NCBI GenBank assembly: GCA_963681505.1
Contig: OY811985.1
Coordinates: forward strand, 6,802,073 to 6,866,072
DNA length: 64,000 bases
Direction of reading: 5' to 3'
DNA from: Eunapius fragilis
Taxonomy: Eukaryota > Porifera > Demospongiae > Spongillida > Spongillidae
Shown: positions 78-51,644 of the stretch, in pieces
How positions within the stretch are numbered: the first letter of the stretch is position 1
Layout: each line of letters begins with the position of its first letter
Program-made: the position numbers and the translations under genes
The notes under the pieces: generated by a model
Told to the model about the DNA's origin: nothing
The model's input: only the letters and a program-made list of their open reading frames with translations
The model's database searches: none

Positions 78-80
78 CAC

Positions 81-113: not shown

Positions 114-117
<4 letters not shown>

Positions 118-141
118 TAGCATCACCACAGCACAACATAC

Positions 142-2189: not shown

Positions 2190-2560
2190 AGGGTACAGGG
2201 ACACCCCAATAAGACCCCGAAGGCTAGGGTACAGGGGCCCCCAATAAAACCCCGAAGGCTAGGGTACAGGGGCCCCCAATAAAACCCCGAAGGCTAGGGT
2301 ACAGGGGCCCCCAATAAGACCCCGAAGGCTAGGGTACAGGGGCCCCCAATAAGACCCCGAAGGCTAGGGTACAGGATCCCCAATAAGACTCCGAAGGCTA
2401 GGGTACAGGGGCCCCCAATAAGACCTCGACGGCTAGGGTACAAGGGCCCCCAATGAGAACCCGAAGGCTAGGGTACAGGGACCCCCAATAAGACCCGAAG
2501 GCTAGGGTACAGGGTCCCCAATAAGACCCCGAAGGCTAGGGTAGCCCCTAATAATACCCC
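2190..2560. repeat. 35-bp minisatellite, about 10 copies
   Basis: Tandem copies of a 35-bp unit containing AATAAGACCCCGAAGGCTAG and GGTACAGGGGCCCC, with degenerate copies at both ends from about 2105. It lies upstream of the visible NTF2-like exons in an otherwise featureless interval. Confidence 0.85.
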
Positions 2561-3716: not shown

Positions 3717-3957
3717 GATTGGAAGCACGTCACGTGAGAGCATACTTTTATAGTGACACTCCATGATACTGTAAGAACTATCCCTTGATCTTATCCTATG
3801 TGACTATTTTATAAAACATGTTCGTGTAGCTTGGTCTTTGCTGCATCCCACTGCGTAATTCGTTTCAAGACCATGTGGATGTGGATTGCGCAAGGGATAG
3901 TTCTTACCGTATCACGGAGTACAGAAGTATGCTCTCACGTGAAGTGCTTCAAATCCC
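3717..3957. mobile_element. Foldback element (MITE-like)
   Basis: The left arm, 3717-3788, is an imperfect reverse complement of the right arm, 3890-3957. Both contain CACGTGAGAGCATACTT and end in TAAGAACTATCCCTTG on the inner side, around a spacer of about 100 bp. There is no coding content. Long terminal inverted repeats on a short non-coding element fit a non-autonomous DNA transposon. A target-site duplication could not be fixed by eye. Confidence 0.7.
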
Positions 3958-4540
3958 TCTCTAAATAATGTATGGTAGTAGTAAAGGAGGTTCATTATCT
4001 GATGTATGTGTAAGGCATCACATGCAGGCCTGTGCATGCCTTGTTAACACCTGGTGTGCATGCCACTGCTATTTGAGTTACATATACCTGTGGCTAAAAA
4101 GTTTTTAAATGACTGCAATCATTTCCTATAGCTACTCCCTGTACGAACCCAGGAGTATAATGGTGGTGCTTGAAATAGCTCCGCAAGCTGTACTGTAATA
4201 GTGTCCATTGAACTTCCACCAGTGGACACCCTTCTAGCTCCCTTCATGTTGGGACATCCACACCACTACAAGGCCCCTTGCTCCTCCTCATCAGGGTACC
4301 CCCATTTCCTTGGATGCTGCACTTCCACATCAGGACACAGCCTCTCTAGGACCCCCCTCCACACAGTATACCCCTCCTGCTCCACCACTACATGCAACCC
4401 CCACTTCCACCTCCACAATTACACACCATTAGGGGATCTTAATACACCATCTGCATATCTGGGGAGGGTCTGCTGCAACTATATATTCTTGTAGCTCAAT
4501 TGGACACAATGTTCTTATCAGAAATTTAAAAACAGATAAA

Positions 4541-28400: not shown

Positions 28401-29107
28401 TAATGTGTGTATTTCAATGATGTATTTGTCACAGCTGCCATAAAATATCTTTAAGCCAAGTACATACCATGGGTCAACTTCAATTGACTTTTAGCTGGTA
28501 GCTCAAATGAATACGAGTAAAAGGTTGTTTATTGCGGGGCTAAAACTTGTGTGTAGGAATAAACAGAACATCTTGTATCACTCTTATGTGATAACCAGAG
28601 CTGCAATGGAATGTGAGGGTGTAGTAGGTCTTCTTACATCAAATCCCCCTTACAGCTTGCTCCATTATCAAATCCCCCTTACAGCTTGCTCCATTATTAC
28701 CACATGACACAGCAATGTATCAACAAAGCACGATGGAATGCAGTACACATTGGCAAGAGGATCTTGTGTTACAATTGAATACTGAGAGAGCATATGCATT
28801 GATATGACACCCTCAAAGGTCAGAACCAAAGATAAACACATAAACATCTCAATTACATCACCTGGTTACTTATGTTCAATTATTACTGTGTCAACCTCAG
28901 ACCTCCTGTTATGCAATATTGAGTAATGGTAATAATAATGCAGACAGTACATATGTAACAAAGTAGTGAATACATTCTTCTTTGTCCTAATACAAGCATT
29001 GCAATGTGAACGTAGCCCAACAAATACTATCCAGACGGCTGCTTGCAGATAATAACAACCATTAATGTGGTTAACAAATTATGCTGTGCATGTATCCGTT
29101 TGTCTCA
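28401..29107. other. 3' intergenic space between convergent genes
   Basis: It lies between the angiomotin stop and the stop of the minus-strand chimera. It should hold both 3' UTRs. No gene or repeat of note was seen apart from a short CCCCTTACAGCTTGCTCCAT duplication near 28645-28695. Confidence 0.5.
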
Positions 29108-30697
29108 TTAGTGTGCTGACTTCTTTTGAAGACGTGTTTTCATGGCAATGAAGTTTCCCTTCAGTTGAAGGCCATACTGTGGAGCGAAAGTAAAGTGTGT
29201 CCAAGTACGACAATACTATTTTATGGCTGCCATAATGAATTTCGATCACAATTATAACTGTGAAAGTATACAAACAAATGTATTAGAAAGTGGCTCACAC
29301 AAAAAAAACATGTGACACTCTGCTTAACAACAGGCATGTTCTATTAATAGCCACACCTGCTATTTGTAATCCATGCCAGGAATACATAGTGTCAAAGCTA
29401 TAAAACCAGGAAACAGGCATAGCATGATTCCTTAGCTGCATGCACACAAATGGCAGCTTACATACTATCTCCTTTCACTATTCTACACTGACCTTCAACA
29501 GACGAATGCTGTGAATCCACTTAGCAAGTTGATGATAGGAAGAGACACAGACAAGCTTTGTGTCTTTAGATTTCCATGAACTCACAGGCTAAAGATACAA
29601 CCACAAACACGAAGCAGTTATCAACGCAGTTAATTTAAAGAGGAACCCACTTTCACTCAGACACAAGCCATGTTTGACCATAATGTGAGGCTGCCTGTAC
29701 ATCTCACCTTCATCACAAAACAATACGGTGTGGGAGTGACAAGCGTGTTTCCCTGCATCACGTTTGGTGTGTAGAGGCAGTGCTCTATGGGACAAAACAG
29801 CTCCATCTCACCACCCTTCTGTCAAGAGAGCAAAGTGTTGTCATTGGTGAGGCACTACTGATGCTGCCTAACCCTACCCCATACACACACACACACACAC
29901 CTTGGATTCTCCGATGAGGTATATCCCCAGTGCACGTAGAGAAAGGGTACCCCTTTTCCACTGAAGCCTTGAGCCATTTGTACAGTACACCACATCGGAC
30001 GGCACATCAGGTATTCTGTTGTCATGGCAATACCTATGGATCTGAGTCTTTGGTATCTAAAGAGGGAATGCAAAGTTAGAAATGAGGTGTCTGGCCATGG
30101 TGGATCATGTGACTGCTATGGTCTGGCCAGGTGGATCATGTGACTGCTATGGTCTGGCCAGGTGGATCATGTGACAGCTGATATGATACACCACACACAT
30201 GATAAATTGTGCGATGATGTCACATGAGGTGTGCAAGTGTGATGGCACATGAGGGCGTGTCCAATGGGATGATAGGACTCTCAATTATATATATATAGAA
30301 CTGCAGTTTACTGGTACCCTTCATGTGTAAGGAGTGTTAACTGAAACATACAGGTGGTTCTGTGCTCCAGAGGGAGTGCTTGCTGTAGAATTCTTTGACC
30401 ATCAGGATGGGTTTGTTCTTCTCTGGCCACAACGACATCACATCACGGATCAACAGGTGGTCCTCCAAGACACGGACTGGAGAAAGAAAGCAGAGCATGT
30501 CTCCTGACAATGGAGAGCTTTAACAGATGGACATTACCTATCTTGAGGCTCTCGACCACTTCAAACAGTGCTGAATTGAGGGTTAGATGTATGCCTGCTA
30601 CCTCAGCAGCCCTGAACATCACAGACATCACAGGAGCGTTTTCCTTCACTGTGACCTGATGCACACCACTGCCATCCACATGAACAAGTATGGTAAT
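29108..30697 (-). other. RA-PH module of the chimera (MRL/GRB-like)
   Basis: The RA (Ras-association) fold begins [20 protein letters not shown] and continues [20 protein letters not shown] and [17 protein letters not shown]. The PH domain follows: [30 protein letters not shown], and the last helix [20 protein letters not shown]. The protein ends 17 residues later, so there is no SH2 domain as in GRB7/10/14. The preceding basic helix [10 protein letters not shown] mirrors the segment before RA in RIAM and lamellipodin. In those proteins RA-PH binds Rap/Ras-GTP and phosphoinositides and brings actin effectors to the membrane. Confidence 0.75.
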
Positions 30698-33672
30698 CTG
30701 CAGTAGGATAGCTATGGTAATCTGCAGTAGGATAGCTATGGTAATCTGCAGTAGGATAGCTATGGTAATCTGCAGTAGGATAGCTATGGTAATCTGCAGT
30801 AGGATAGCTATGGTAATCTGCAGTAGGATAGCTATGGTAATCTGCAGTAGGATAGCTATGGTAATCTGCAGTAGGATAGCTATGGTAATCTGCAGTAGGA
30901 TAGCTATGGTAATCTGCAGTAGGATAGCTATGGTAATCTGCAGTAGGATAGCTATGGTAATCTGCAGTAGGATAGCTATGGTAATCTGCAGTAGGATAGC
31001 TATGGTAATCTGCAATAGGATAGCTATGGTAATCTGCAGTAGGACAGCTATGGTAATCTGCAGTAGGATAGCTATGGTAATCTGCAGTAGGATAGCTATG
31101 GTAATCTGCAGTAGGATAGCTATGGTAATCTGCAGTAGTATATCTTGCCTATACTTACAGTGGTAGGTGATGCTACTGGCTTCTTCAGTAACTTGTTTTT
31201 GGCCTGCAAACGTATAGATTAGTTAAAAGGACATTTTAAATCCACATATCTCACTTTGACTGGCTGAAGCTGTGGTGACTGTGAAAGATTATCTGCAATA
31301 AGTGTGTGCATATCAGTTAGTGACGGTCCCAAATAGTTGATTATTTATATCACAGAAAAATATTTGAATATACGTGGTGTTACTTCCTAACTAGTAAGTT
31401 ACATGTATATATAAATCCCACACGCATACACACATACAAAAATCCCACACACATACACACATACACAAATCACATACACACACACACACACAAATCATAT
31501 ACACACATGTACATGCACAAAAAAAAATCCCTGTCCTACCTTCTGATGCAAGGTTACTGATGGATGGAGGTATCAAAGACCATTCACTCCTGTCATTTGT
31601 TGACTTCAAGTCTCTAATAGATACCTGAGTCTCTCCAACACCATGTGTCAGGTTTGGAAATGAAGATGACCTTCGGTGTTCAATGTGTGGTGCTGTAATA
31701 TTGGAAGATGACTGCGAGTGTCTCCGCAGCAAAGTCTCAAGGCCATCAATCATGTGTCCAAGGTCATCCACCATCTTGCTGACTGAAGTATACACAAACA
31801 CACATGACTTAGATGGGTTCGAAAAAAAAAAAAAAGACAAGGGTACAGAATGTTCCCACAAAGATGAGCAGGTGGTAAGTAAAGTAAGAAGAGATAAAGG
31901 GGAGAAGGAGAAGGTAAGGGAGGCGATGCAGTATGCATGGGGTATGAGGGTGTGGGGTATGAGGGTGTGGGGTATGAGGGTGTGGGGTATGAGGGTGTGG
32001 GGTATGAGGGTGTGGGGTATGAGGGTGTAGGGTATGAGGGTGTGGGGTATGAGGGTGTGGGGTATGAGGGTGTGGGGTATGAGGGTGTGGGGTATGAGGG
32101 TGTGGGGTATGAGGGTGTGGGGTATGAGGGTGTGGGGTATGAGGGTGTGGGGTATGAGGGTGTGGGGTATGAGGGTGTGGGGTATGAGGGTGTGGGGTAT
32201 GAGGGTGTGGGGTATGAGGGTGTGGGGTATGAGGGTGTAGGGTATGAGGGTGTGGGGTATGAGGGTGTGGGGTATGAGGGTGTGGGGTATGAGGGTGTGG
32301 GGTATGAGGGTGTGGGGTATGAGGGTGTGGGGTATGAGGGTGTGGGGTATGAGGGTGTGGGGTATGAGGGTGTGGGGTATGAGGGTGTGGGGTATGAGGG
32401 TGTGGGGTATGAGGGTGTGGGGTATGAGGGTGTGGGGTATGAGGGTGTGGGGTATGAGGGTGTGGGGTATGAGGGTGTGGGGTATGAGGGTGTGGGGTAT
32501 GAGAGTGTGGGGTATGAGGGTGTGGGGTATGAGGGTATGGGGTATGAGGGTATGGAGTATGAAGGTATGAGGTATGATCTAATTACAAGTGATCATCCCA
32601 CCTGCACAACTATCAATTGAAGAAGTACACAGGAACACACGGGTCACATGGATGGATAAGTGTTTGTTAGGGGGACTGCCATATGCTCACCTCTAACAGA
32701 TGAGACTGAGGTGTGGCCCACTTCCTCCACACCCTCACTAGTGGCAGGAAGGAGGGAGGGAGGGTGAGGACTAACAGGTGCAACCAACTGCTCATCTGAT
32801 GACCTTGAACCAACAGGTGCAACCAACTGCTCATCTGATGACCTTGGACCAACAGGTGCAACCAACTGCTCATCTGATGACCTTGGACCAACAGGTGCAA
32901 CCAACTGCTCATCTGATGACCTTGGACCAACAGGTGCAACCAACTGCTCATCTGATGACCTTGGACCAACAGGTGCAACCAACTGCTCATCTGATGACCT
33001 TGGACCAACAGGTGCAACCAACTGCTCATCTGATGACCTTGGACCAACAGGTGCAACCAACTGCTCATCTGATGACCTTGGACCAACAGGTGCAACCAAC
33101 TGCTCATCTGATGACCTTGGACCAACAGGTGCAACCAACTGCTCATCTGATGACCTTGGACCAACAGTTGCAACCAACTGCTCATCTGATGACCTTGGAC
33201 CAACAGGTACAACCAACTGCTCATCTGATGACCTTGGACCAACAGTTGCAACCAACTGCTCATCTGATGACCTTGGACCAACAGGTGCAACCAACTGCTC
33301 ATCTGATGACCTTGGACCAACAGGTGCAACCAACTGCTCATCTGATGACCTTGGACCAACAGTTGCAACCAACTGCTCATCTGATGACCTTGGACCAACA
33401 GGTGCAACCAACTGCTCAGATGTGGCTTGCACCTGCATCTCAACACTCTCCTCTGCCATTTTGACCTGACTATGTGAGCCCCCCTGGTCAACATAGTCAT
33501 CAATTCGGGTGACAGATAGTGCTTCTTCCTCCTCAACTGATTCCTGGGGCACAGAGTAAATAGCAGAACCACTTAGTAGCCCTGGAGCAGGCTATAGAGG
33601 GAGGGATGAGGGAGGAGGGAGGGACATAAACTGATGCACTAAAAAGCGCCATGTGTGTACGCACAAGACTAT

Positions 33673-33740
<68 letters not shown>

Positions 33741-33780
33741 CACACACACAGACACACACACACACAGATACACACACACA

Positions 33781-33812
<32 letters not shown>

Positions 33813-33813
33813 G

Positions 33814-33847
<34 letters not shown>

Positions 33848-33858
33848 ATACACACACA

Positions 33859-33902
<44 letters not shown>

Positions 33903-36900
33903 AATACTCTCACAACATCAAACAACACTTGGAGAAAAGTATGTGTACAGGCAGACCCTGGAAATAGGTCACACAGCCTGTACTACATGGCTACATAGGT
34001 CACACAGCCTGTACTACATGGCTACATAGGTCACACAGCCTGTACTACATGGCTACATAGGTCACACAGCCTGTACATGACAACGTACATACCAAAAGAT
34101 TGAAGACTCTCCAAAACACATCTCCTTCATGACCATCCCTCACAAATGTGATCACAAAGTCCCTCAAAGTCCTTTGGGAGTACTGCACACTGATAAAAGT
34201 CTGCAAGATGATAGAACAGCCAAGTGGCAAGTGGCCCCATTCAAGCAGTTACCCAATACTATGCATTTGGATCCCACATAGCATACCATTAGCAATAGAT
34301 GCCCACACTGATGGCCTAGATGCCCACACTGATGGCCTAGATGCCCACACTGATGGCCTAGATGCCCACACTGATGGCCTAGATGTCCACACTGATGGCC
34401 TAGATGCCCACAGTGATGGCCTAGATGTCCACAGTGATGGCCTAGATGTCCACACTGATGACCTAGATGTCCACACTGATGGCCTAGATGTCCACACTGA
34501 TGGCCTAGATGTCCACACTGATGGCCTAGATGTCCACAGTGATGGCCTAGATGCCCACACTGATGACCTAGATGTCCACACTGATGGCCTAGATGTCCAC
34601 ACTGATGGCCTAGATGTCCACACTGATGGCCTAGATGCCCACACTGATGGCCTAGATGCCCACACTGATGGCCTAGATGTCCACACTGATGGCCTAGATG
34701 CCCACACTGATGGCCTAGATGTCCACACTGATGGCCTAGATGTCCACACTGATGGCCTAGATGCCCACACTGATGGCCTAGATGTCCACACTGATGGCCT
34801 AGATGCCCACACTGATGGCCTAGATGCCCACACTGATGGCCTAGATGTCCACACTGATGGCCTAGATGTCCACACTGATGGCCTAGATGCCCACACTGAT
34901 GGCCTAGATGTCCACACTGATGGCCTAGATGCCCACACTGATGGCCTAGATGCCCACACTGATGGCCTAGATGCCCACACTGATGGCCTAGATGCCCACA
35001 CTGATGGCCTAGATGTCCACACTGATGGCCTAGATGTCCACACTGATGGCCTAGATGCCCACACTGATGGCCTAGATGTCCACACTGATGGCCTAGATGC
35101 CCACACTGATGGCCTAGATGTCCACACTGATGGCCTAGATGCCCACAGTGATGGCCTAGATGTCCACACTGATGGCCTAGATGTCCACACTGATGGCCTA
35201 GATGTCCACACTGATGGCCTAGATGCCCACACTGATGGCCTAGATGTCCACACTGATGGCCTAGATGTCCACACTGATGGCCTAGATGTCCACACTGATG
35301 GCCTAGATGCCCACACTGATGGCCTAGATGCCCACACTGATGGCCTAGATGCCCACATTGATGGCCTAGATGTCCACACTGATGGCCTAGATGCCCACAC
35401 TGATGGCCTAGATGTCCACACTGATGGCCTAGATGTCCACACTGATGGCCTAGATGTCCACACTGATGGCCTAGATGTCCACACTGATGGCCTAGATGCC
35501 CACACTGATGGCCTAGATGTCCACACTGATGGCCTAGATGCCCACATTGATGGCCTAGATGTCCACACTGATGGCCTAGATGCCCACACTGATGGCCTAG
35601 ATGTCCACACTGATGGCCTAGATGTCCACACTGATGGCCTAGATGCCCACACTGATGGCCTAGATGTCCACACTGATGGCCTAGATGCCCACATTGATGG
35701 CCTAGATGTCCACACTGATGGCCTAGATGCCCACACTGATGGCCTAGATGTCCACACTGATGGCCTAGATGTCCACACTGATGGCCTAGATGTCCACACT
35801 GATGGCCTAGATGCCCACACTGATGGCCTAGATGTCCACACTGATGGCCTAGATGTCCACACTGATGGCCTAGATGTCCACACTGATGGCCTAGATGCCC
35901 ACACTGATGGCCTAGATGTCCACACTGATGGCCTAGATGTCCACATTGATGGCCTAGATGTCCACACTGATGGCCTAGATGTCCACACTGATGGCCTAGA
36001 TGTCCACACTGATGGCCTAGATGTCCACACTGATGGCCTAGATGCCCACACTGATGGCCTAGATGTCCACACTGATGGCCTAGATGTCCACACTGATGGC
36101 CTAGATGCCCACACTGATGGCCTAGATGTCCACACTGATGGCCTAGATGCCCACACTGATGGCCTAGATGTCCACACTGATGGCCTAGATGTCCACACTG
36201 ATGGCCTAGATGTCCACACTGATGGCCTAGATGTCCACACTGATGGCCTAGATGTCCACACTGATGGCCTAGATGCCCACACTGATGGCCTAGATGTCCA
36301 CACTGATGGCCTAGATGTCCACACTGATGGCCTAGATGCCCACACTGATGGCCTAGATGTCCACACTGATGGCCTAGATGCCCACACTGATGGCCTAGAT
36401 GTCCACACTGATGGCCTAGATGCCCACACTGATGGCCTAGATGTCCACAGTGATGGCCTAGATGTCCACACTGATGGCCTAGATGCCCACAGTGATGGCC
36501 TAGATGTCCACACTGATGGCCTAGATGTCCACACTGATGGCCTAGATGCCCACACTGATGGCCTAGATGCCCACACTGATGGCCTAGATGTCCACACTGA
36601 TGGCCTAGATGTCCACACTGATGGCCTAGATGTCCACACTGATGGCCTAGATGCCCACACTGATGGCCTAGATGTCCACACTGATGGCCTAGATGCCCAC
36701 ACTGATGGCCTAGATGTCCACACTGATGGCCTAGATGTCCACACTGATGGCCTAGATGTCCACACTGATGGCCTAGATGTCCACACTGATGGCCTAGATG
36801 CCCACACTGATGGCCTAGATGCCCACACTGATGGCCTAGATGCCCACACTGATGGCCTAGATGTCCACACTGATGACCTAGATGCCCACACTGATGGCCT

Positions 36901-39900
36901 AGATGCCCACACTGATGGCCTAGATGCCCACACTGATGGCCTAGATGCCCACACTGATGGCCTAGATGTCCACACTGATGGCCTAGATGTCCACACTGAT
37001 GGCCTAGATGCCCACAGTGATGGCCTAGATGTCCACACTGATGGCCTAGATGTCCACACTGATGGCCTAGATGCCCACACTGATGGCCTAGATGCCCACA
37101 CTGATGGCCTAGATGCCCACACTGATGGCCTAGATGCCCACACTGATGGCCTAGATGTCCACACTGATGGCCTAGATGCCCACACTGATGGCCTAGATGT
37201 CCACAGTGATGGCCTAGATGTCCACACTGATGGCCTAGATGCCCACAGTGATGGCCTAGATGTCCACACTGATGGCCTAGATGTCCACACTGATGGCCTA
37301 GATGCCCACACTGATGGCCTAGATGCCCACACTGATGGCCTAGATGTCCACACTGATGGCCTAGATGTCCACACTGATGGCCTAGATGTCCACACTGATG
37401 GCCTAGATGCCCACACTGATGGCCTAGATGTCCACACTGATGGCCTAGATGCCCACACTGATGGCCTAGATGTCCACACTGATGGCCTAGATGTCCACAC
37501 TGATGGCCTAGATGTCCACACTGATGGCCTAGATGTCCACACTGATGGCCTAGATGCCCACACTGATGGCCTAGATGCCCACACTGATGGCCTAGATGCC
37601 CACACTGATGGCCTAGATGTCCACACTGATGACCTAGATGCCCACACTGATGGCCTAGATGCCCACACTGATGGCCTAGATGCCCACACTGATGGCCTAG
37701 ATGCCCACACTGATGGCCTAGATGTCCACACTGATGGCCTAGATGTCCACACTGATGGCCTAGATGCCCACAGTGATGGCCTAGATGTCCACACTGATGG
37801 CCTAGATGCCCACACTGATGGCCTAGATGTCCACACTGATGGCCTAGATGTCCACACTGATGGCCTAGATGCCCACACTGATGGCCTAGATGTCCACACT
37901 GATGGCCTAGATGTCCACACTGATGGCCTAGATGTCCACACTGATGGCCTAGATGTCCACACTGATGGCCTAGATGCCCACACTGATGGCCTAGATGCCC
38001 ACACTGATGGCCTAGATGCCCACACTGATGGCCTAGATGTCCACACTGATGACCTAGATGCCCACACTGATGGCCTAGATGCCCACACTGATGGCCTAGA
38101 TGCCCACACTGATGGCCTAGATGCCCACACTGATGGCCTAGATGTCCACACTGATGGCCTAGATGTCCACACTGATGGCCTAGATGCCCACAGTGATGGC
38201 CTAGATGTCCACACTGATGGCCTAGATGTCCACACTGATGGCCTAGATGCCCACACTGATGGCCTAGATGTCCACACTGATGGCCTAGATGCCCACACTG
38301 ATGGCCTAGATGCCCACACTGATGGCCTAGATGCCCACACTGATGGCCTAGATGCACACACTGATGGCCTAGATGCCTGCACATATTTACTTTGACAATG
38401 TCTAGCAGGAATAGGCCACCCCAGGATGAGGAGCCTAGCCACACCAACAGCTGTAAGAAGAACACCAGGTTAATTAGATCACATTTATAAATAGTTTTAA
38501 AATGCATACCTGGTCTTTGTGCACCAAGAGATAACACCTCTCGTGGATCAAGTCCTATTTAGGTATCATGTGCATGTGTGTGGTGTACATGGTGTACATG
38601 GTGTATGTGGTGTACATGGTGTATGTGGTGTACATGGTGTATGTGGTGTATGTGGTGTACATGGTGTATGTGGTGTACATGGTGTATGTGGTGTATGTGG
38701 TGTATGTGGTGTACATGGTGTACATGGTATATGTGGTGTACATGGTGTATGTGGTGTATGTGGTGTACATGGTGTATGTGGTGTATGTGGTGTACATGGT
38801 GTATGTGGTGTACATGGTGTACATGGTATATGTGGTGTACATGGTGTATGTGGTGTACATGGTATATGTGGTGTACATGGTATATGTGGTGTACATGGTG
38901 TATGTGGTGTACATGGTGTATGTGGTGTATGTGGTGTACATGGTGTACATGGTATATGTGGTGTACATGGTGTATGTGGTGTATGTGGTGTACATGGTGT
39001 ATGTGGTGTATGTGGTGTACATGGTGTATGTGGTGTATGTGGTGTACATGGTGTATGTGGTGTACATGGTGTACATGGTATATGTGGTGTACATGGTGTA
39101 TGTGGTGTACATGGTATATGTGGTGTACATGGTATATGTGGTGTACATGGTATATGTGGTGTACATGGTATATGTGGTGTACATGGTGTATGTGGTGTAT
39201 GTGGTGTACATGGTGTACATGGTATATGTGGTGTACATGGTGTATGTGGTGTATGTGGTGTACATGGTGTATGTGGTGTATGTGGTGTACATGGTGTATG
39301 TGGTGTATGTGGTGTACATGGTGTACGTGGTGTACATGGTGTATGTGGTGTACATGGTGTATGTGGTGTACATGGTATATGTGGTGTACATGGTGTATGT
39401 GGTGTACATGGTATATGTGGTGTACATGGTGTATGTGGTGTACATGGTATATGTGGTGTACATGGTGTATGTGGTGTATGTGGTGTACATGGTGTATGTG
39501 GTGTACATGGTGTACATGGTATATGTGGTGTACATGGTATATGTGGTGTACATGGTGTATGTGGTGTACATGGTGTATGTGGTGTACATGGGTGTGAGCA
39601 AGCAAGTAAGGATGTTACACATGTGGTATATAACACACCTCTCTGGTACAAACATCTGTCCTTGCAAACTGCGCTCTTCCCTCACTCCATAAACACTGGA
39701 ACAGTGCTGGGACAGGGTATGGTAGCCGCTAAAGGAAGTTTGAGATAGAAAGAATTCCATAATGTTCAAAGTGTTTATCCATGCACCTCCCCATATCTCC
39801 TCTCCACACATGCACCTCCCCACATTTCTCCACACATGCACCTCCTCATCCTCTCCACACATGTACCTCCTCATCCTCTCCACACATGCACCTCCTCATC

Positions 39901-42900
39901 CTCTCCACACATGCACCTCCCCATATCTCCTATCCACACATGCACCTCCCCATATCTCCTCTCCACACATGCACCTCCCCATATCTCCTCTCCACACATG
40001 CACCTCCTTATCCTCTCCACACATGCACCTCCTCATCTCCACACATGCACCTCCCCATATCTCCTCTCCACACATGCACCTCCCCACATCTCCTCTCCAC
40101 ACATGCACCTCCTCACATCTCCTCTCCACACATGCACCCCATATCTCCTCTCCACACATGCACCTCACCACATCTCCACTCCACACATGCACCTCCCCAC
40201 ATCTCTCCACACATGCACCTCCCCACATCTCCTCTCCACACATGCACCTCCCCACATCTCTCCACACATGCGCCTCCCCACATCTCTCCACACATGCACC
40301 TCCTCATCCTCTCCACACGTGCACCTCCCTATATCTCCACCCTCCACACATGCACCTCCCCATATCTCCTCTCCACAATTGCACCTCCATCTCCTTACCT
40401 CTAGTGTGTGAATGTGGGTATGTTCACCCTTGCCTCCCAGAAGTGACCAGAACTCTGGCGTCTCAAGTCCTTCCGCAAGTTTAACTGCATCACTGTCCAC
40501 AGAGCATATATACTAGTGATATTGGTACCTTACCATATTTGGGCATGCTGCAAACCATATTTGTACATGCTGCCATACCATATTTGTACATGCTGCATAC
40601 CATATTTGGCATATACTACACGTACCACATTGGTTTCAATGACACAGCTATTACCAACGCTGCCCTTCGTTCCACAGTAGAGGAGAAATGTCCACTCCAA
40701 GCAAAGATTTTGCTATCCGTGACAAGGACAAATGAGTGGGTGGAGTCAAGGGATGATGCAGTGGGTGAAACCTGCCATAAACCAAAGAACCAAAGTAGCA
40801 CAAGTGATAACAGTTCATACCTTGCAACAGATGGTCATACCTAACAACAGATGTGTATGCAGTTATATCATGAGTGTGAGTACAACTTGTTAGAAAGGAG
40901 TCACCCATCTCCTGCCATCAATCACACATCCACTTTACCCATATCTGCCTAACATCTATACCTCCCCACATACATACTCACACACCCACATACACACATA
41001 CACATGGACACACCCACAAACGCACCTCTGATGCTTTTATTCTCAATGTGGCATTTCCAGACACTTCATAAAGATGAATGCCTTTGATTTGCTGTTGAAC
41101 TTTATTTGATGATGGCTAAGTACAAGATAAGGCAATAAGGCATTAAGGCAGGATAAGGCATTAAGGCAGGATAAGGCATTAAGGCAGGATAAGGCATTAA
41201 GGCAGGATAAGGCATTAAGGCAGGATAAGGCATTAAGGCAGGATAAGGCATTAAGGCAGGATAAGGCATTAAGGCAGGATAAGGCATTAAGGCAGGATAA
41301 GGCATTAAGGCAGGATAAGGCATTAAGGCAGGATAAGGCATTAAGGCAGGATAAGGCATTAAGGCAGGATAAGGCATTAAGGCAGGATAAGGCATTAAGG
41401 CAGGATAAGGCATTTTTTAAGGCAGGGGTAAATTACCACCCAGTACCATCTCTAACAAGCATCTCCCTCCACCTTCCTCCACCCTTCCCACCTCCCTCCA
41501 CCCGTTCCACCTCCTTCCACCCCTCCCACCTCCTTCCACCCCTCCCACCTCCCTCCACCCCTCCCACCTCTCTCCACTTCTCCCTCCTCCCCCTTTGACA
41601 ATGTACCTGAAAGGCAAAGTTGCTGATTATAAACTTTCCTTTGAATACATTAAGCAGCTCATCTGTTTCTTTCCCCTGTGAGACAATCACTAGAGGCTGG
41701 TGGGTATAAGGGATTCACAATTAATGCTACCTCCAAATGCAAGCACTATATGTCATGCAACTTCAATTAATGCTCCTGATGCAAGCACTGAATGTAACTC
41801 TGATACTGGTATATCCATGTACCATTAATGTAACTCTGATACTGGTATATCCATGTACCATTATCATTTAGCACATTGTGGAGGGGGAAGAGCCACTCCT
41901 CCATCACTGCACTACATGCAGTAAGGTAACAGTGCAAAGCTAGCTACTAAAGTCTGCAACACCATCAAGGAAGTAAATGTTAATGGCTTTTTAATGAAAA
42001 TATTAAATTCATGCCCAATGTGTAGAAATCTACCAGCTATGTTGGGAACCTTGTGAAGCTTAACAATTAGTTAAAATTTAACAGGGGGTACTTTTAAAAT
42101 ATTTACTCAATTGGACCATTATTTTGTACCGCATCCAAAATAAACAATCATATTTTGATTCTACATGTATTGATACCTCTAATCTCGTCTTCTGCTTTTA
42201 CAATGTCTGTTCAAGAATACATTCTTTACTTTTTAGCCTCATTACTGGCGCCACCTTTAGACTGTGCAAACAAACAGTTCTCACTAAAATAACTGTTCAG
42301 AACCATAGTTTGCTTAGTGTTAGATAAGGGCCGCTCCTTGTACCTTTATTTGTTCTAGCTCCCAGAGGCCCTTTTTTATATGGACAGCGAGTCAGATACG
42401 GACGATATGTAATACATTCACACTTATTTGTTTGAGTTATGTAAACGTTTCGAAGTGTTTTCATGTGACATTAATTATCGTCAATAATAGTCTCGTTCAT
42501 TATATTCAACTCACTGAATTTTTAATAATACGTGATGGTCTGCGGAAAACATGTCTAACCTATTATTTAGACCCCAAAGACACCTTTTTTTAAAAAGGAG
42601 TGCATAATTTTTACTTCCTCAATGGTGTCGCGGACTTTAATAATGGTCAAGCAGCTGCCCTCATTACTCCATAGATAAGTAGCCAGATAAGGGTTAAATA
42701 TTTTTATGCACCTAGATAAGGGTTAAATCTTTTTATGCAGCTAGGTAAGTCTTTGTATGCAACCAAAGAAGTACTTACCACAGCCACACCCACCTTGGAA
42801 TCGCAGCCACGCCTACCTAGCACTCACCACAATGCCCCGAGGATCAAGATCAGCCAACTGCACAAGAGCCTTCATTGTTGCTTCTTCACAAGACCCTGCC

Positions 42901-43804
42901 TCCTTCCCCACCCACAGAAAGGTCACTCCACCTTTTTGAGAAATAAGGTAGATGCCTGCAGAGAAGAAGTGACCATACTGCTCCAGTGACACCAACTTTC
43001 TTTTGCCCTCAACAAGTTGATGTACCTGTGAGTGGGTGGGGTCAGGGGAGGGATTGGTAGAGGGAATGTGAGTGGGTGGGGTCAGGGGAGGGTTGGTATA
43101 GGGAATGTGAGTGGGTGGAGTCAGGGGAGGGGTTGGTAGAGGGAATGTGAGTGGTGGGGTCAGGGGAGGGATTGGTGGGTGGGGTCAGGGGAGGGTTGGT
43201 AGAGGGAATGTGAGTGGGTGGAGTCAGGGGAGGGGTTGGTAGAGGGAATGTGAGTGGTGGGGTCAGGGGAGGGATTGGTGGGTGGGGTCAGGGGAGGGGT
43301 TGGTGGGTGGGGTCAGGGGAGGGGTTGGTAGAGGGAATGTGAGTGGGTGGGTCAGGGGAGGGGTTGGTAGAGGGAATGGATATAGGATGGAGGCAGGAAC
43401 TCGTAAAAGTATAGGTGGGAGGGGTCAACATTCATGAACTCACTGTAGTTCCTCTTGATGCAGGGAAGACTACCTCATAATGCTTCTCTTCTTCAAGCTT
43501 TAGGTGCTCTGCACCTTGGGTCAATGAGAAGTCAACCAGAGGCCATGACAAGAAATGGGCACAAAATTCATCCGTCTCCCCTCCCTCTGTTACCACGGTG
43601 ATAGGCACCACAGAAGGGTATGACCGGTGGGTAAGGAACAGCTGCAAGTATCGAGACATGTAGTGACACTTTAACATGTGTTCTAAAAATGTCTGCAAAT
43701 GCAGTACCACTGACACATGTACACACATGCACATATAATAATATATATAAACACACACATGCTCAGATATACACACACACACACACGCATGCACACACAC
43801 ACAC

Positions 43805-43852
<48 letters not shown>

Positions 43853-46800
43853 TCTCATCTACCTCAGCTATGGGAAGACCGTTCATCCCAGCATGCTTTA
43901 CTGGTATCCAAACAAACAGCCTGGTAGCAGTATCCAGTACATGAGGCTCATGTGGTCCGAGAGAGGCGTGTACCAGAGGTGAGTTGACAATTTTGAAGGT
44001 AGAATTTGTATATCTGTAAAAACAAGTTGAATTGAAAAAATAGCCACCAAAATAAAAAATGAAAGGTACACCATTACGATATTCCACCCTTCTATAACCA
44101 TTATTACGCACCTGTATAGACATGCACCCTGTAAAGCATCGTTGTGGTAAGAAGTCTGCGGCTCTTGCAATTTCTCTTTGAACAGCTGCGCGAATGGCCA
44201 AGTCTCGTGACCCTGCACCTGCAATATTATGTAATAACTAGCTTGCACGGGCTGATTATTTACCACCTGTTCTAGCATACGTTACTACGCAACCTCTATA
44301 ACATGCCCGCGCAATACAAATACTTCATGAAATTATTAGTAACTACATGTTTTCGGCCTGTACTATGAGACTTGAGAGTGAACCACTACAATAGCGTTGC
44401 TTTAATTTTTACTGCATGTGATGGCCTGTACAGGCATGTAGGTTTTGTGGCACGTTGCTATGTAATTTTGTCCTATTGGTTGCTAGGTACGCGAACATAC
44501 CTAGCAACCAATAGGCGATGAGTTACGCGGACGTACGTACGTTGGAAATTATAGTATGTAATATCACCACGCCCATTGTCCACCCACTTTACCTCTCGAT
44601 GAACTACAACGCTTCCGGACAGTGAAGCGAGCAGTTGAAGGCAATACTGGTAGCTTGTTTGAATATCCACTGCGCTTGATTCTCTCCCTGTCCAGATATA
44701 TACGTGGTGAAACAGAGGACCATGTTTTTTTATCTGTGTACGGTATATAAATTCAAGTAGTTGCTTCGGCTGCATTTTTAATTCTCTTACCAGTAAGCAG
44801 ATAAATACAGAGTTTGGACTGAATGTGATCGTGTCCCATGACGTAACCTTGAGCAACGTGTTGGCCTGTAGAAGGAAAGGTTGTTAAGTTTGTGTGCGGT
44901 TGATATGGTATAGGCAATTTTTTTTTATTGGAGCACACTTCTGCGGTGATTTTTACAAGCACATGTAATTAAAATCGTCTATGAAATGTTTTATTTATGG
45001 CCTTCCCCGCCCCCCCCCCCCCCCCCCCCCCCCCGCGTAATTATGAAAACCTTACAAAAGGTACATACCTTTAGTTTCCATACAAAGAGTTGGTCACAGC
45101 TTGGCCCATGTCTGATCTCTCTGAATACTCGAGGGATTTTCCTGCTGCTCATTGCTTCCTTAATCAGCCTTTCAACTGCCACCTGCGCCATGGCAACCAT
45201 CTTTTCATGATGGTCCTCCAATAACTTGTTGAGGTGGGGAAGATTGGCAGGTGTCATGTACCGTGGAGAGCCATCTGACCCTCGCCTCGTCTGGAGTGGC
45301 GGCAGGGGTGCAGCAATAGGTGGGGCAGTAGGTGTGGCAGTGGGTGTGGCAATCTCCCTTTTCACGTTGCTGGCACTCTGGGATATGGTTAAAGGACTAG
45401 TGGAGGAAAGTGACCTTCTTTGCTTAGGTGGAGTTGGAGAGTCTTTCTCATCTGGTGAGATGGGACCTCTTGTTACCGTGCTACTGTTTGTCGGTCCTGG
45501 AGATGGTTGGGTACCCCTGGTGTCCATCACCTGCCTCTTCTCTTCTTCGTCTTCATCCTCAGACTCTGCTATTACCTCCAGTGACTGTGTTCTGGCTAGG
45601 CTTGGTGCAAAAGTGGTTAGTTCTATTGTGCCCTCATATGTCTCTACATTGGTTTCCATATTTTCTTTTGTTACTGATAGGTCATGTTTTACCTCTTCCC
45701 CAGACTTTCCTATCCCCCGAAACATCTTTAGCATGTGACTGACATTACCATTGATGACGACATCACTCCCTGCCAGGGGTTTTGTAATGGGCGGACCCTC
45801 TGGCTTGCTATCTCCCAGCTGGGCCATCCTTCGGTGGATTTCTGATGAAAGTTTTCGTTCTGGTATCATTGCCAAACCTCCCTGGCTACTTTGGGCCAGG
45901 TCGTCCTTGACAACAAAGGTGTCGTCACTAGCAACACTGCAGGCATCCACGTCATTGCTTTCTCTTTCAGTATGACCAGGCCACGCCTCCTTGATATGGT
46001 CCAGTCCTTCCATACTTCCCCACCTTTGCAGTGGGGAATGGTTGCTTTGCACGTCATGGCCGTCCATGGGTGCACTGTCATGGCCGTCCATAGGTGCACT
46101 GTCATGGCCATCCATAGGTGCACTGTCTTCTAAAGGTTCTGCAGATGAGGTGATGATGGTTGTATCAGATGTGGTTATGACTTGATGTGGGTGTTTGAAT
46201 GGTTTTGAGTGGTGGCCTCTTCCAGTCATGTTTTCTTGTTCACTGGTTGGGTCTTGTGTTCCAATAGAGGCACCCCTACTTTCTTCCTTGTCATTCATGT
46301 CATGGTATGGCTTAACCATCTTTTCAGAGACCTTGTCTGATAGCACTCCGTGGAAGATGTCAGTCAGCTCCTTTAAGTTGTCAGGTCCTTGGACTACCAC
46401 TGCATCTATACTCAAATCCCTTTCCTTGTTGGAGGCAGCAACAGTATGTTGAGATTCATGGATGTGTTTATTGGCCTTGCTAAGGTCCCCATCTCTATCT
46501 CCATGGTGATGGCCTGTCCTGCTAAGGTCCCCATCTCTATCTCCATGATGATGGCCTGTCTTGCTAAGGTCCCCATCTCTATCTCCATGGTGATGGTCTG
46601 TCTTGCTAAGGTCCCCATCTCTATCTCCATGGTGATGGTCTGTCTTGCTAAGGTCCCCATCTCTATCTCCATGGTGATGGTCTGTCTTGCTAAGGTCCCC
46701 ATCTCTATCTCCATGGTGATGGTCTGTCTTGCTAAGGTCCCCATCTCTATCTCCATGGTGATGGCCTGTCTTGCTATGGTCCCCTCCATCTCTCTCCTTT

Positions 46801-49800
46801 GACCTTCTTTTAACCTTCTTTTCTTCTGTGTTTGGTTCCAATAGGCTGACATTAACTCCCGCAATAGGAAATGTCTTGTCATAGGGTGAGTCATTATCAG
46901 CATCAGGGGAAGGAGATGGAGATGAACCCTGTTGTGTTTTTAAGATATGGTGTGGAGTGGTATGACTGCTGGCTTTGTGCTTTGGTTGAGAGACCTTGGG
47001 AGGTGTAGTGGCATTCTGGGTGGTTCTGAGGGGTGTGGCCTCCTTTTCATTGGTGGTATCTGTGTGTGAGAGCTATTAAGAGTTGTGGGGATCTGGCACG
47101 TGTTAGGATATGGCTAGACCATGGAAAGGAAAGGCCACATCCCAAAGGTCATGCATCCCTTCTCCCTCTCCTCCCTCTCATCCCTCTCCTCCCTCTCATC
47201 CCCTCCCCTCCCCTCTCCTTCCCTACTCCTGCTCCCTCCTTCCCAAAGGAAATGTGTCACCACACACATTTATTGACTTCTTACGTTTCTGATCCATTCG
47301 CTTAGTCATGTTTTGTTCTTCCATACAAGGTGCTGCCTCAACTACATGTGAGGAAGAAGTTTGGGTATCTTCCTCCTTCACCATCTTCTCCCCCTCCTTC
47401 ACAATCTCCTCCCCCTCATTCACCATCTCCTCCATTACTTTGTTCTTTGACTGTTTTTTAACCTGTTTTGCAGTTGGTTGCCCTAGGGCCTGCTTCAGCC
47501 CATGCTCCTTCTCTTCAGGTTGCCCTAGGGCTTGCTTCAGCTCATGCTCCTTCTCTTCAGGTTTTTTCTCTCTTCCCTTGGACCCATGGTGCATGTCTCC
47601 ATCATCCTGGGGCACCTCCCCCTCATCTGGAGTGCTTTTCTTATATGCTGATAGCTTTAACCTCATCTTCAGTGGCAGTTTGGTCTTCTTCTTAGTGGCA
47701 TCATTACCCTCTTCACCATTGCTCTGCTTCCAACTATTTTTCCATAACCTTTTCAGGATACTCAAGTTGGTAGATGAGCCTTCTAATGGCTTAATCCCAT
47801 CAGCAGAAAGGTCAGATAGTGGGGAATCTCCTGGATCAGCTGGGGAATCCCCTAGCTTTAATTTATCCTATGATGAATATGAATTGGATAGAGTTTAATG
47901 CTGCATGCTATTGGAGTGTGAGGTGGGGGGGAGGGGTGGGGTGGACATGAGGTGGGGGAGGGGAGGGGTGGGCAGGAGGTGTGGTGACTGCAGGATGGAT
48001 GTTGGATAGCCCAGGGGCAGGATCATAAACCACACACACCTTCACTGGTACATCCACTTGTATTGGGCCAGCATGTGTTTGAGAAGAGCCAGGCTTCTCA
48101 AAGAGGAAAGGCTGAAGTGGGGGCCTTGGCTTTGATGGTGTCTCTTTCAATTCCAAACCCTAGATGGATGATTCAGTTGATCAACATGCATTACCAAGTT
48201 AACTACCACACTAGGGGTCAGATCTTGAATATTGTAATGATACTGGCAATATTTGGTCTCATTCTACACACACCCACTTCATCCTCACCTCGTCATGTGA
48301 CCCCTCACCTTGTCATGTGACCCCTCACTTGTCATGTGACCCCCCTCACCTTGTCATGTGATGCATCTCACCTCATCACATGACCCCCACCTCATCATGT
48401 GACCCTCTCACCTCATCACATGACCCCCTCTCACCTCATCATGTGACCCCTCTTTGGTGTGCTTGTTCTGTGGTTGGCCACGCTGGGATCGTAAAGATCC
48501 GACGACAGCCACGTTGCTCAGAGAGGAGTATGCAGGGTTGAAAGGATCTATACCTTCTTCAAGGATCTGATGCAGCCCTGGTAGAGGTATTGTGGTCTGC
48601 AGAGGGTAACAGATCAATGCCCCAGCCCAGGGGACATATCAAAACACTTAAAGGTTCATTGGGGGTGCGGCTATATGAGGATGGCTAGGACAGTTCGGTT
48701 TGTTGTAATAAAATGTAATGGAAGGAAGGTAGGGAGGGTGTAGGAAGAGAAGGGGACTAATGATGGTGCAGGATAACGGTGGATGTGAGAGTACAACTGT
48801 GTTTAGGCTGGCCACACAGTCGCACACACAGCAGGAGGTACACACAGCAGGAGGTAAACACACAGGAGGTACACACAGCAGAAGGTACACACACAGTAGG
48901 AGGTACACACACAGCAGGAGGTACACACAGCAGGAGGTACACACAGTAGGAGGTACACACAGCAGGAGGTACACACACAGCAGGAGGTACACACAGCAGG
49001 AGGTACACACACAGCAGGAGGTACACACAGTAGGAGGTACACACAGCAGGAGGTACACACACAGCAGGAGGTACACACACAGCAGGAGGTACACACAGTA
49101 GGAGGTACACACAGCAGGAGGTACACACACAGCAGGAGGTACACACAGCAGGAGGTACACACACAGCAGGAGGTACACACAGTAGGAGGTACACACAGCA
49201 GGAGGTACACACACAGCAGGAGGTACACACACAGCAGGAGGTACACACAGTAGGAGGTACACACAGCAGGAGGTACACACACAGCAGGAGGTACACACAG
49301 TAGGAGGTACACACAGCAGGAGGTACACACAGCAGGAGGTACACACAGCAGGAGGTACACACACAGCAGGAGGTACACACACAGCAGGAGGTACACACAC
49401 AGCAGGAGGTACACACACAGTAGGAGGTACACACACAGCAGGAGGTACACACACAGTAGGAGGTACACACACAGCAGGAGGTACACACACAGTAGGAGGT
49501 ACACACAGCAGGAGGTACACACACAGCAGGAGGTACACACACAGTAGGAGGTACACACAGCAGGAGGTACACACACAGTAGGAGGTACACACACAGCAGG
49601 AGGTACACACACAGCAGGTGGTACACACACAGTATTTGCTTTGTTGTGATAAAATCTATCACCAGAGTGAACTACAATTAGTGTTTTAACCCATAGTTTA
49701 TGCAATCTCTAAATGACAAGTGGATGGGGTAGGTCAAATTTAAGAGGCCTCACAGCTTCCTTCTCTGCCTCCTTCCATTTGGCCTCCTGTTCTTCTGCAC

Positions 49801-50088
49801 TCACATCAGCCAAAAGTGCTTCTTCAAACTTTCGTTGCTTTTCAATGTCTTCAAACTTTAACAGAGACGAAAACTTTAAGGTAATCCAGAGGGGTAAGTG
49901 GTATGGAGGGAAGAAGGCATGAGGAAGAGGGCATGGGAAGAAGGCTTGGGGAAGAGGACACAGGGACATGGAGGGAAACATTACATAGGCTACAAACAGT
50001 TCTCACCTCCAATTCTTTAGGAAGCAAAGCTGCCTCACGATGTGGACTCTGAGATGGTGTAACCTATAGCAAATGGCAGATCATTAAA

Positions 50089-50149
<61 letters not shown>

Positions 50150-51644
50150 ACACTTCTGACCCTCTTAGGCTTGGTTGCTTTAAAAAGTAGGCTGACACAC
50201 TCCTGGTGGTTCTTTTCTTTAGCCAAGTCATAGGGTCGCAGGTGCTCATAGTCCTCTGTACCCATGTCAATTCCACGCCTCACCAGTGCTTTCAGCACCC
50301 CACTCTGTGCACATGACAACTTTATGAGGTATGTGGTTTGGACCTGGCTCTTTCCCTACCTGTCCTTGGTCAGCAGCATCATGAACTGGTGTGCCCCCCA
50401 AGTCATCCCTATCATACGCTGACCCCCCGTGGTCCAAAATCCACTCTAAGCATTGTACCTGAGAAGAGAATGCAGGGGAAAAAAAAAAAAATCAATGGAG
50501 TGATGGGGGGGGAAAAAAATCATTCCCCAGGGGAGGATCGAACTCCCGACCTTCGCATTACTCAATACTGCATATAAGTACGACGCGCTAACCGACTGAG
50601 CCACTGGGGAACCTGAAAGGTCTGCTCAAACGAACAGATTTTATGCCAAACTTATTAAAATTCCTTTTACCTGACCCCCAGCTGCAGCGAAGTGTGCAGG
50701 GGTAGCTCCATCGTCTGCTCTAATTCTTATGGACATTCCGACGGTATTCACCAGATATTCTAAGCAAGCTATTTTCCCAGCCTGAGCGGCTGCATGAATG
50801 GGTCCCATGCCGTCCAGTGCAGTTAAGTACGGGTCCCCTCGCCCATGTTCGACCAGCCACTGAAGACAATTGTAACTGAAGGGTTAGGCACGTGACGTTT
50901 ATATGCAAAGCATTTCAAACAACACTAGCTCACCTTCCTTCCTGTGCGGCGAAATAAGTGGCTGTTGCTCCATGAAGCGTTCGTTCATTTGGTTTGTACT
51001 GCGAATGACTGGTCAGCCACTGGAGACACTGCAACTGATCTGTGCTCAGAGAGAGAAAAATGTTGCGCATCCATTTCCTTCGGTCATAGACCAAAGTATT
51101 ATATCTTTACACCCTATTGTCTCTAACCCTCTCTCCCCACCTCTTAAATGTACTAGTACTCACTTGCAGCAGCGCACAGATGCACAGGGGTGACGTCACT
51201 GAATCCCTTCTCGCTTGGAGTCGACCCACAATGCTCCATGAGCCATTTCACAACATTCAATCGTCCGAACCTGCATGCCATGTGTAGTACGGTTGCGCCT
51301 TCCTTGGTAACGTCTTTGGCTGAGCAGTGGGTATTAGTAAGCAGATATTCAAGGCATTCCAGGCGACCTGCAGCTGCTGCATCATGGGCAGCAGTTGCTC
51401 CGTTTTCAGACACCGCATTTGGAGAGATGCCGCTTTTTATTACTAGCCAAACGAGACATTCGAGCTTGCCGCTTCTTGCCGCGTAATGGATGGGCGTGGC
51501 ACCATGTTCGTCCCTCTCGTTGAGAATATGCATCTCCTGATATGCTGTCGACAGGCACTCGATGTGGCCAAGTCGAGCCGCAAGAATGGCGGGCTTGCGG
51601 GCTTTCTTGCATTCTCCACATATGTTGGCCTTCTTCCTTCCCAT
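29108..51644 (-). CDS. Espin-like ankyrin / gelsolin-repeat / RA-PH chimeric actin regulator
   Basis: 35 exons, every junction in phase, total 7,560 nt (about 2,519 residues). Exons 1-5 (51644-51164, 51039-50934, 50875-50671, 50458-50360, 50304-50149): start [18 protein letters not shown], then espin-like ankyrin repeats ([40 protein letters not shown]). Exons 6-11 (50063-50007, 49855-49754, 48596-48435, 48159-48040, 47867-47285, 47059-45069): disordered, with an espin-like EAALLP motif and a 14-residue repeat. Exons 12-25 (44865-44791, 44733-44593, 44218-44112, 44013-43863, 43641-43474, 43025-42828, 41696-41607, 41115-41026, 40771-40655, 40512-40399, 39728-39639, 38554-38510, 38450-38391, 34200-34093): five gelsolin-like repeats. 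Exons 26-29 (33591-32691, 31782-31540, 31292-31255, 31203-31159): linker, mostly a 13-residue repeat. Exons 30-35 (30697-30538, 30476-30352, 30056-29901, 29818-29708, 29588-29493, 29176-29108): RA then PH. Exon 21's upper boundary is the least certain. Confidence 0.78.
30689..31137 (-). repeat. 24-bp minisatellite carrying a splice acceptor
   Basis: About 19 copies of CTACTGCAGATTACCATAGC plus TATC, read on the minus strand. The copy nearest the RA exon supplies its acceptor (CTGCAG) and its first codons, ATT ACC ATA. Every other copy reproduces the acceptor. Confidence 0.92.
31935..32570. repeat. 15-bp minisatellite, about 42 copies
   Basis: Unit GGTATGAGGGTGTGG in intron 26 of the chimera. 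The open plus-strand frame over it (GYEGV repeats) follows from the period being a multiple of three. Confidence 0.92.
32772..33421 (-). repeat. 39-bp coding minisatellite (13-residue repeat)
   Basis: About 16 in-frame copies encoding [13 protein letters not shown] in exon 26 of the chimera. The only variable positions are APV/TVG-type changes and one early S. It forms an acidic, Pro-containing spacer between the gelsolin repeats and the RA domain. Confidence 0.9.
33676..33900. repeat. (CA)n microsatellite with interruptions
   Basis: About 220 bp of CA with GACA/TACA variants in intron 25 of the chimera. Confidence 0.9.
34297..38384. repeat. 4.1-kb, 21-bp minisatellite, about 195 copies
   Basis: Unit GATGYCCACACTGATGGCCT plus A, where Y is C or T. 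It fills intron 24 of the chimera almost from donor to acceptor. Rare variants (CAGTGAT, GATGACC, ATTGAT) mark larger duplications: the GATGACC variant recurs at 36871, 37627 and 38047, that is 36 and then 20 units apart. Because 21 is divisible by three, one plus frame and two minus frames stay open over 4 kb; these are not genes. Confidence 0.95.
38578..39593. repeat. 9-bp minisatellite, about 113 units
   Basis: Mixed GTGTACATG, GTGTATGTG and GTATATGTG units over 1 kb in intron 22 of the chimera, with longer repeating blocks. Confidence 0.92.
39780..40385. repeat. Pyrimidine-rich minisatellite of 20-30 bp
   Basis: Variable units of CTCTCCACACATGCACCTCC in intron 21 of the chimera. Confidence 0.88.
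41133..41418. repeat. 18-bp minisatellite, about 16 copies
   Basis: Unit AAGGCAGGATAAGGCATT, almost perfect, in intron 18 of the chimera, ending near an acceptor in gene sense. Confidence 0.92.
41697..42827. other. Unusually plain 1.1-kb intron
   Basis: Intron 17 of the chimera. It contains no tandem array, apart from a 36-bp duplication around TAACTCTGATACTGGTATAT near 41795-41860. No exon or transposon was recognised. Confidence 0.45.
43025..43400. repeat. About 40-bp G-rich minisatellite
   Basis: Units built from GTGGGTGGGGTCAGGGGAGG and GTTGGTAGAGGGAATGTGA in intron 16 of the chimera. Confidence 0.85.
43768..43852. repeat. (CA)n microsatellite
   Basis: Interrupted CA run in intron 15 of the chimera, adjacent to the donor of exon 15. 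Confidence 0.85.
46460..46795 (-). repeat. 42-bp coding minisatellite (14-residue repeat)
   Basis: Seven to eight in-frame copies encoding [14 protein letters not shown] inside exon 11 of the chimera. It is rich in His and Asp, a possible metal-binding or purely flexible segment. Confidence 0.88.
48825..49632. repeat. 15/17-bp minisatellite, about 50 units
   Basis: Units of GGAGGTACACACAGCA with either one or two extra CA, in intron 7 of the chimera. Confidence 0.92.
50090..50146. repeat. (CA)n microsatellite
   Basis: CA run in intron 5 of the chimera, directly after the donor of exon 5. Confidence 0.9.
50511..50517 (-). terminator. Pol III T-run terminator of tRNA-Ile
   Basis: Seven consecutive T on the minus strand, a few bases beyond the tRNA 3' end. 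Confidence 0.7.
50524..50610 (-). tRNA. trnI-UAU: tRNA-Ile (UAU) with a 14-nt intron
   Basis: On the minus strand the acceptor stem is TCCCCAG paired with CTGGGGA. The A box is TGGCTCAGTCGG and the B box lies in GGGAGTTCGATCCTCCC. The anticodon arm is TCGTA / loop CTTATAA / TGCGA, with the intron inserted one base after the anticodon TAT, as in other eukaryotic tRNA-Ile(UAU) genes. A run of seven T follows just downstream (about 50511-50517), a pol III terminator. It lies in intron 3 of the chimera in the same orientation. 3' CCA is not encoded, as expected in a nuclear gene. Confidence 0.9.

Follow-up and report, generated by a model that had tools for sequence, protein, structure and literature searches.

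A predicted sponge gene places an RA-PH unit behind espin-like ankyrin repeats and five gelsolin-type domains

Espin (ESPN) consists of an N-terminal ankyrin array and a tail with proline-rich, WH2, and bundling elements. ARAP proteins combine ankyrin, PH, and RA domains, and Dictyostelium villidin combines a PH domain with gelsolin-type domains; neither is known to have ankyrin, gelsolin, and RA-PH modules together. No description of this combination was found in the open-licence PubMed Central literature, searched by titles and the starts of abstracts, among the matches listed. Here, we analyze a predicted gene with all three modules on the reverse strand of a 64,000-nucleotide window of the Eunapius fragilis genome (C15:6802073–6866072; the assembly searched is 219 Mb in 24 contigs). 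Its novelty is the combination of known domains, and it is no new kind of system. The analysis makes it probable that one sponge gene encodes a single scaffold of about 2525 residues with proposed docking, actin, and membrane roles.

The exons were chained by our own reading of the reverse strand using splice sites and homology. The gene runs from 51644 to 29108 and has 35 exons that sum to 7578 nucleotides including the stop codon, a multiple of three, and encode 2525 residues. All 34 introns are GT-AG, their lengths range from 51 to 4190 base pairs (bp), and several are minisatellites. The only stop codon is the terminal one. The rebuilt chain gives the same exon numbering and span as a first-pass annotation of this window that had reported 35 exons in phase. 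The chain was picked by eye for openness and spliceability, and kept phase alone is no independent proof of it. The modules occur in the order espin-like ankyrin array, long linker, five gelsolin-type domains, a linker of 13-residue repeats, and RA-PH unit (Table 1). We infer from these features that the 35-exon chain is a single gene.

Residues 1–349 match Pfam Ank_2 at 8.8e-56. Espin-1 (structures 5et0/5et1) gives a single co-linear match in the PDB comparison, aligning residues 16–336 with 5–325 in one stretch (E 1.4e-64), and this agrees with the espin-like ankyrin module named at first pass. Ankyrin chimeras and ankyrin-1 outscore espin-1 in sum (best 1.7e-84), but their matches split into four or five stretches. 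The sponge protein shares the espin array over nearly its whole length and in the same N-terminal position, whereas gelsolin and RA-PH modules follow in place of the espin tail. The linkers (residues 350–1360 and 1870–2287) contain no Pfam family at E 1. An espin-type C-terminal WH2 and actin-bundling module was not found in the same kind of search, which a degenerate WH2 could escape. A separate espin-like gene is present in this genome at C11:5824431–5825240, with an ankyrin frame that is 35% identical. That frame has a similar N-terminal CxxCxK..P motif and is followed by charged and proline-rich frames.

The first gelsolin domain begins at the end of exon 11, and residues ~1340–1880 match PDB gelsolin at 1.4e-33. 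The block as a whole scores 6.5e-21 in Pfam. Taken as single pieces, four of the five match PF00626, two of them above the Pfam cut-off, and the second piece is unmatched. The PDB alignment passes through this second piece in register as G3-like, at the position of gelsolin domain 3; the five are numbered G1, G3-like, G4, G5, and G6 after gelsolin. These scores bear out the five gelsolin-type domains of the earlier description. Intron 24 (4.2 kb) does not interrupt the alignment, which extends into exon 25 and covers nearly all of the last domain. The frame of exon 24 stays open through the intron 24 minisatellite to 34166, a length of 1428 codons. This read-through was rejected, since it would disrupt the last gelsolin domain and arrive at exon 25 in the wrong frame, which makes intron 24 the better reading.

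The calcium sites of the gelsolin block were read by eye from the PDB alignment. The pairs GD, GD, ND, and DD of gelsolin G1, G4, G5, and G6 are NS, AG, TH, and ER in the sponge protein; the second domain is unaligned. We take these positions to be the calcium-site Asp, which is replaced in all four domains that align. Searched exon by exon, the villin headpiece (PF02209) has no match in the window and three matches in the genome (C6, C9, and C16). Actin severing had been proposed for the block, and the loss of the calcium-site Asp together with the missing headpiece speaks against it. With the gelsolin/villin superfamily the protein has in common its five gelsolin-type domains, preceded by an extended N-terminal region of low complexity, but it differs in these two features and in its ankyrin N terminus and RA-PH C terminus. 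The likeness to supervillin is one of outline. Supervillin is reported to bind myosin II and to have a large disordered N-terminal region (PMC6192639). A gelsolin-block query of the genome returned 15 matches, 14 at the present locus and one weak match on C6 (33%) that adjoins a headpiece. Gelsolin-repeat matches followed by a villin headpiece occur at C6:10183001–10192000 and C9:1455001–1464000, and these are likely villin-type genes.

Residues 2288–2525 were compared with the PDB using phmmer and matched RIAM (5.9e-17), lamellipodin (3.7e-16), and Grb14 (1.8e-11). The lamellipodin match spans RA and PH as one stretch. A repeat of the comparison with the core of the unit again matched RIAM and lamellipodin. 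Both domains are subthreshold in Pfam, with RA_2 at 26.4 bits (cut-off 27) and PH at 19.3 bits (cut-off 25.1). The profile check suggested for the joined protein thus recovers Ank_2 and Gelsolin and leaves RA_2 and PH below their cut-offs. SH2 has no match at E 1, and the stop codon comes shortly after the PH domain, so the BPS and SH2 tail of Grb7/10/14 is absent. Of the two families offered at first pass, the RIAM/lamellipodin type is supported and the GRB7 type is not. The MRL family (MIG-10/RIAM/lamellipodin) shares the RA-PH tandem and provides the best PDB matches. The sponge protein differs from this family in carrying the tandem behind gelsolin domains, with its Ras/Rap lysines replaced and without a polyproline run (no run of at least four prolines and no [FLWYMDE]PPPP motif in the protein). 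No talin-binding helix was recognized against the PDB at the start of exon 27, where spectrin was the only match, with E no better than 0.21, in what is a weak test with 33 residues.

Grb14 Lys111, Arg120, and Lys140 form salt bridges with Ras, and Val109 and Ala121 form a hydrophobic cluster (PMC3742580). To locate these contacts in RIAM, we used the 9- and 20-residue intervals between the basic residues; the PDB alignment then gave the corresponding positions in the sponge protein. The three basic positions are L, H, and V in the sponge protein, compared to K, K, and K in RIAM and R, K, and K in lamellipodin. The positions of Val109 and Ala121 are T and Q. Because the contact residues are substituted, canonical Ras/Rap reading by the sponge RA-PH unit is unlikely, and the small-GTPase recruitment put forward earlier is not supported. 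The RIAM PH domain stabilizes the RA domain (PMC3327698), so there may be some other reason why RA and PH have been retained together as a folded unit. Intron 29 contains 18 CTACTGCAG sites, including the real exon-30 acceptor, and all are in frame and stop-free. Use of the alternative acceptors could extend the protein ahead of the RA domain by n × 8 residues (ITIAILLQ).

Relatives were sought among 5.8 billion proteins. The gelsolin block in its full-length context recovered one protein of 7101 candidates, the 1719-residue Em0021g45a from EukProt, which, by its name, is apparently from Ephydatia muelleri. It is co-linear with exons 1–16 over residues 1–511 (78% identity), 509–942 (36%), and 937–1572 (53%), and has the same order of ankyrin array, linker, and first two gelsolin domains. 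These three elements are one gene model in two genomes. The search for the same order in other proteomes suggested at first pass therefore succeeded for the ankyrin-gelsolin part, and no relative covering exons 17–35 was found. In its own genome, the RA-PH query gave six matches, all at the present locus. The RA_2 profile gave ten, and the present RA domain is not among them; the profile may likewise overlook a divergent RA-PH gene at another locus. The RA_2 matches on C15, C17, and C9 were rejected as further RA-PH genes because, by eye, their frames resemble MyTH4-FERM or RA-bearing myosins. A subthreshold match on C11 was also set aside, as its adjoining frames look by eye like RasGEF. One more subthreshold match lies on C4. 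RIAM RA-PH pieces matched the genome twice, with E 0.001 on C22 and E 0.97 on C21. Each match has the look of a PH stretch without RA, and the one on C22 is a PH domain that precedes an actin-type domain. This search did not recover the present locus, and it does not show that a standard MRL gene is absent from the genome.

The connection between the gelsolin block and the RA-PH unit depends on exons 25 and 26. Exon 25 closes the last gelsolin domain and ends at a donor without a stop, as first reported, in phase 0 to match exon 26. The acceptor at 33592 that opens exon 26, also as in the earlier reading, is strong and clearly the best in intron 25. Its leave-one-out score is 9.7 (30th of 34, counting up from the weakest), and its full-matrix score is 10.9 compared to 6.8 for the next best in the intron. 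An in-frame TAG before 33592 had been taken as a sign that exon 26 is not a simple 5' end; this triplet belongs to the acceptor and provides no independent evidence. The first Met of exon 26, the start proposed for a separate gene, is residue 45 of the exon. The 44 codons that precede it score 0.67 bits per codon with a codon score trained on exons 1–16 and introns 1–15. Of 1250 noncoding windows of equal length (introns 16–34, both strands), 15 scored as high, all 15 in minisatellite intron 18, and none of 272 windows did so once the repeat-bearing introns 16, 18, 21, 22, 24, 26, and 29 were excluded. No base shuffle of the stretch reached the score without a stop (0 of 5000). If the 44 codons are translated, exon 26 must be preceded by another coding exon, and the phase at the end of exon 25 suits this. 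Exon 26 also contains 16 exact SSDEQLV units within its 39-bp, 13-residue repeats. It is likely that exons 25 and 26 belong to one transcript and hence to one polypeptide.

The evidence on this join is not all on one side. An unlikely alternative is two adjacent genes, an ankyrin/gelsolin gene that ends just after exon 25 and an RA-PH gene with a noncoding first exon in the gap and its start at the exon 26 Met. Several observations weigh toward it and against the join. The exon 25 donor is the fourth weakest of 34, a donor-like site lies at 33914 in intron 25 (6.1 versus 6.0), and reading beyond the exon 25 donor meets a stop after 15 further residues. The upstream frame apparently stops at ~51890, only 245 bp before the ATG at 51644 (by eye), so neighboring genes at this locus could lie as little as 501 bp apart. 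No relative joining both halves was found: exons 27–35 gave none at E 0.001 (candidate length 521–1659; 1659 candidates), and an exon 19–35 composite gave none at E 0.05 (length 270–859; best 7997 candidates by shared words). These searches require shared five-residue words, and their null results neither support nor refute the junction. The codon score is insensitive: among exons 17–35 without exon 26, 12 are 90 nucleotides or longer, and just one of these reaches 0.67. Exons 24, 25, and 33 have scores near zero or negative. Two genes would nevertheless have to place a promoter, a 5' exon, and a 3' untranslated region within 501 bp, much of it GT repeat, ahead of one of the strongest acceptors in the gene and 44 codons that look translated. 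None of 12 polyadenylation hexamer types occurs between 34092 and 33592, but this absence carries little weight: of the 14 other introns that are 250 bp or longer, 8 are likewise free of all 12 types, and where the upstream gene appears to end, AATGAA is the only one present. A trans-spliced leader added to exon 26 of an operon-like gene pair would fit the strong acceptor and the short spacing, with no other evidence for it, although no search for spliced leaders of freshwater sponges was made; the 44 coding-like codons without Met that follow the acceptor make this very improbable.

A different doubt concerns how much of the locus is used in one product. The long form could be minor and the main transcripts shorter, ending for example in intron 16, an idea that overlaps with a single gene and that we consider improbable, though a little less so than two genes. 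The Em0021g45a model ends 11 residues past its alignment in exon 16, which also counts against a full-length product, and the present locus has a stop 3 residues beyond exon 16. Splicing may also vary at the ladder of equivalent in-frame acceptors in intron 29. Em0021g45a breaks off after the second gelsolin domain, however, and looks like an incomplete model, whereas exons 17–25 supply the remaining three gelsolin domains here. The earlier claim of one gene through all modules thus stands for the architecture and for the ankyrin-gelsolin join, which Em0021g45a shares; for RA-PH on the same transcript the support is internal to this locus.

The single-gene reading suggests how the protein might work. 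Exon 25 would be spliced to exon 26, and the RA-PH unit would follow the gelsolin block where villin and supervillin carry a headpiece. As in espin, the ankyrin array may serve as a docking site for a partner, for example a myosin tail. Actin would be bound by the gelsolin domains in the scaffold manner of supervillin, with neither severing nor control by calcium. The RA-PH unit, since its GTPase contacts are replaced, would serve as a folded membrane- or protein-docking module and not as a canonical Ras/Rap reader. Together, these activities would link cortical or filopodial actin to the membrane and a motor. By its sequence, the protein is probably an actin-cortex scaffold of the sponge that is neither GTP- nor calcium-gated. 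With somewhat less confidence than the single gene itself, we favor a sponge-lineage fusion of espin-type ankyrins, a gelsolin scaffold that works independently of calcium, and an RA-PH unit without Ras/Rap reading, in which the RA start may vary through the 18 acceptors. If so, three modules that are separate in the actin regulators of other animals (espin, supervillin, and RIAM/lamellipodin) were joined in a sponge lineage, placing motor docking, actin binding, and membrane attachment in one polypeptide. Such a protein would allow a direct test of which cortical-actin functions cooperate in an early-branching animal and would be a case of an RA-PH unit retained after loss of its GTPase contacts. 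If the halves are separate, the ankyrin-gelsolin fusion alone is still an unusual architecture that is present in two genomes.

Table 1. Features of the predicted gene, in window coordinates.
Feature	Coordinates	Strand	Evidence
Exons 1–5, ankyrin array, residues 1–349	51644-51164, 51039-50934, 50875-50671, 50458-50360, 50304-50149	(-)	exon chain, Pfam, espin-1 PDB match
Exons 6–11, charged linker, residues 350–1354	50063-50007, 49855-49754, 48596-48435, 48159-48040, 47867-47285, 47059-45069	(-)	composition, Em0021g45a match, 0 Pfam families
Exons 12–25, rest of the five gelsolin-type domains (G1, G3-like, G4, G5, G6), residues 1355–1878	44865-44791, 44733-44593, 44218-44112, 44013-43863, 43641-43444, 43025-42828, 41675-41607, 41115-41026, 40771-40626, 40492-40399, 39728-39639, 38554-38510, 38450-38391, 34200-34093	(-)	Pfam and PDB alignment
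Intron 24, 21-bp minisatellite, 4190 bp, within last gelsolin domain	34201..38390	(-)	sequence reading
Intron 25, 501 bp with GT microsatellite, contested gelsolin/RA-PH junction	33592..34092	(-)	splice-site scores, poly(A) scan
Exon 26, residues 1879–2178, 44 Met-less coding-like codons, then 39-bp/13-residue repeats	33591-32691	(-)	exon chain, codon score
Exons 27–29, residues 2179–2287, helix-like start and Ser-rich linker	31782-31540, 31292-31255, 31203-31159	(-)	exon chain
Intron 29, 24-bp minisatellite with exon-30 acceptor copies	30698..31158	(-)	sequence reading
Exons 30–31, RA domain, residues 2288–2382	30697-30538, 30476-30352	(-)	PDB and Pfam matches
Exons 32–35, PH domain, short C terminus, stop codon, residues 2383–2525	30056-29901, 29818-29708, 29588-29493, 29176-29108	(-)	PDB and Pfam matches
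AATAAA, candidate poly(A) signal, ~575 bp beyond the stop	28528..28533	(-)	hexamer reading

Some further features of the locus and the genome were recorded. A tRNA-Ser gene is predicted within intron 3 at 50522–50611 on the minus strand. Frames that look by eye like MyTH4-FERM myosin tails are found at C15:6890001–6900000 and C17:77001–87000, the former ~40 kb upstream of the gene. On C22, one open frame (match at 321711–322019, minus strand) carries TQPSEVVPVP-type repeats and then a PH domain (27.9 bits, cut-off 25.1) directly followed by an actin-type PF00022 domain (1.1e-59), which is another unusual actin-related domain pairing.

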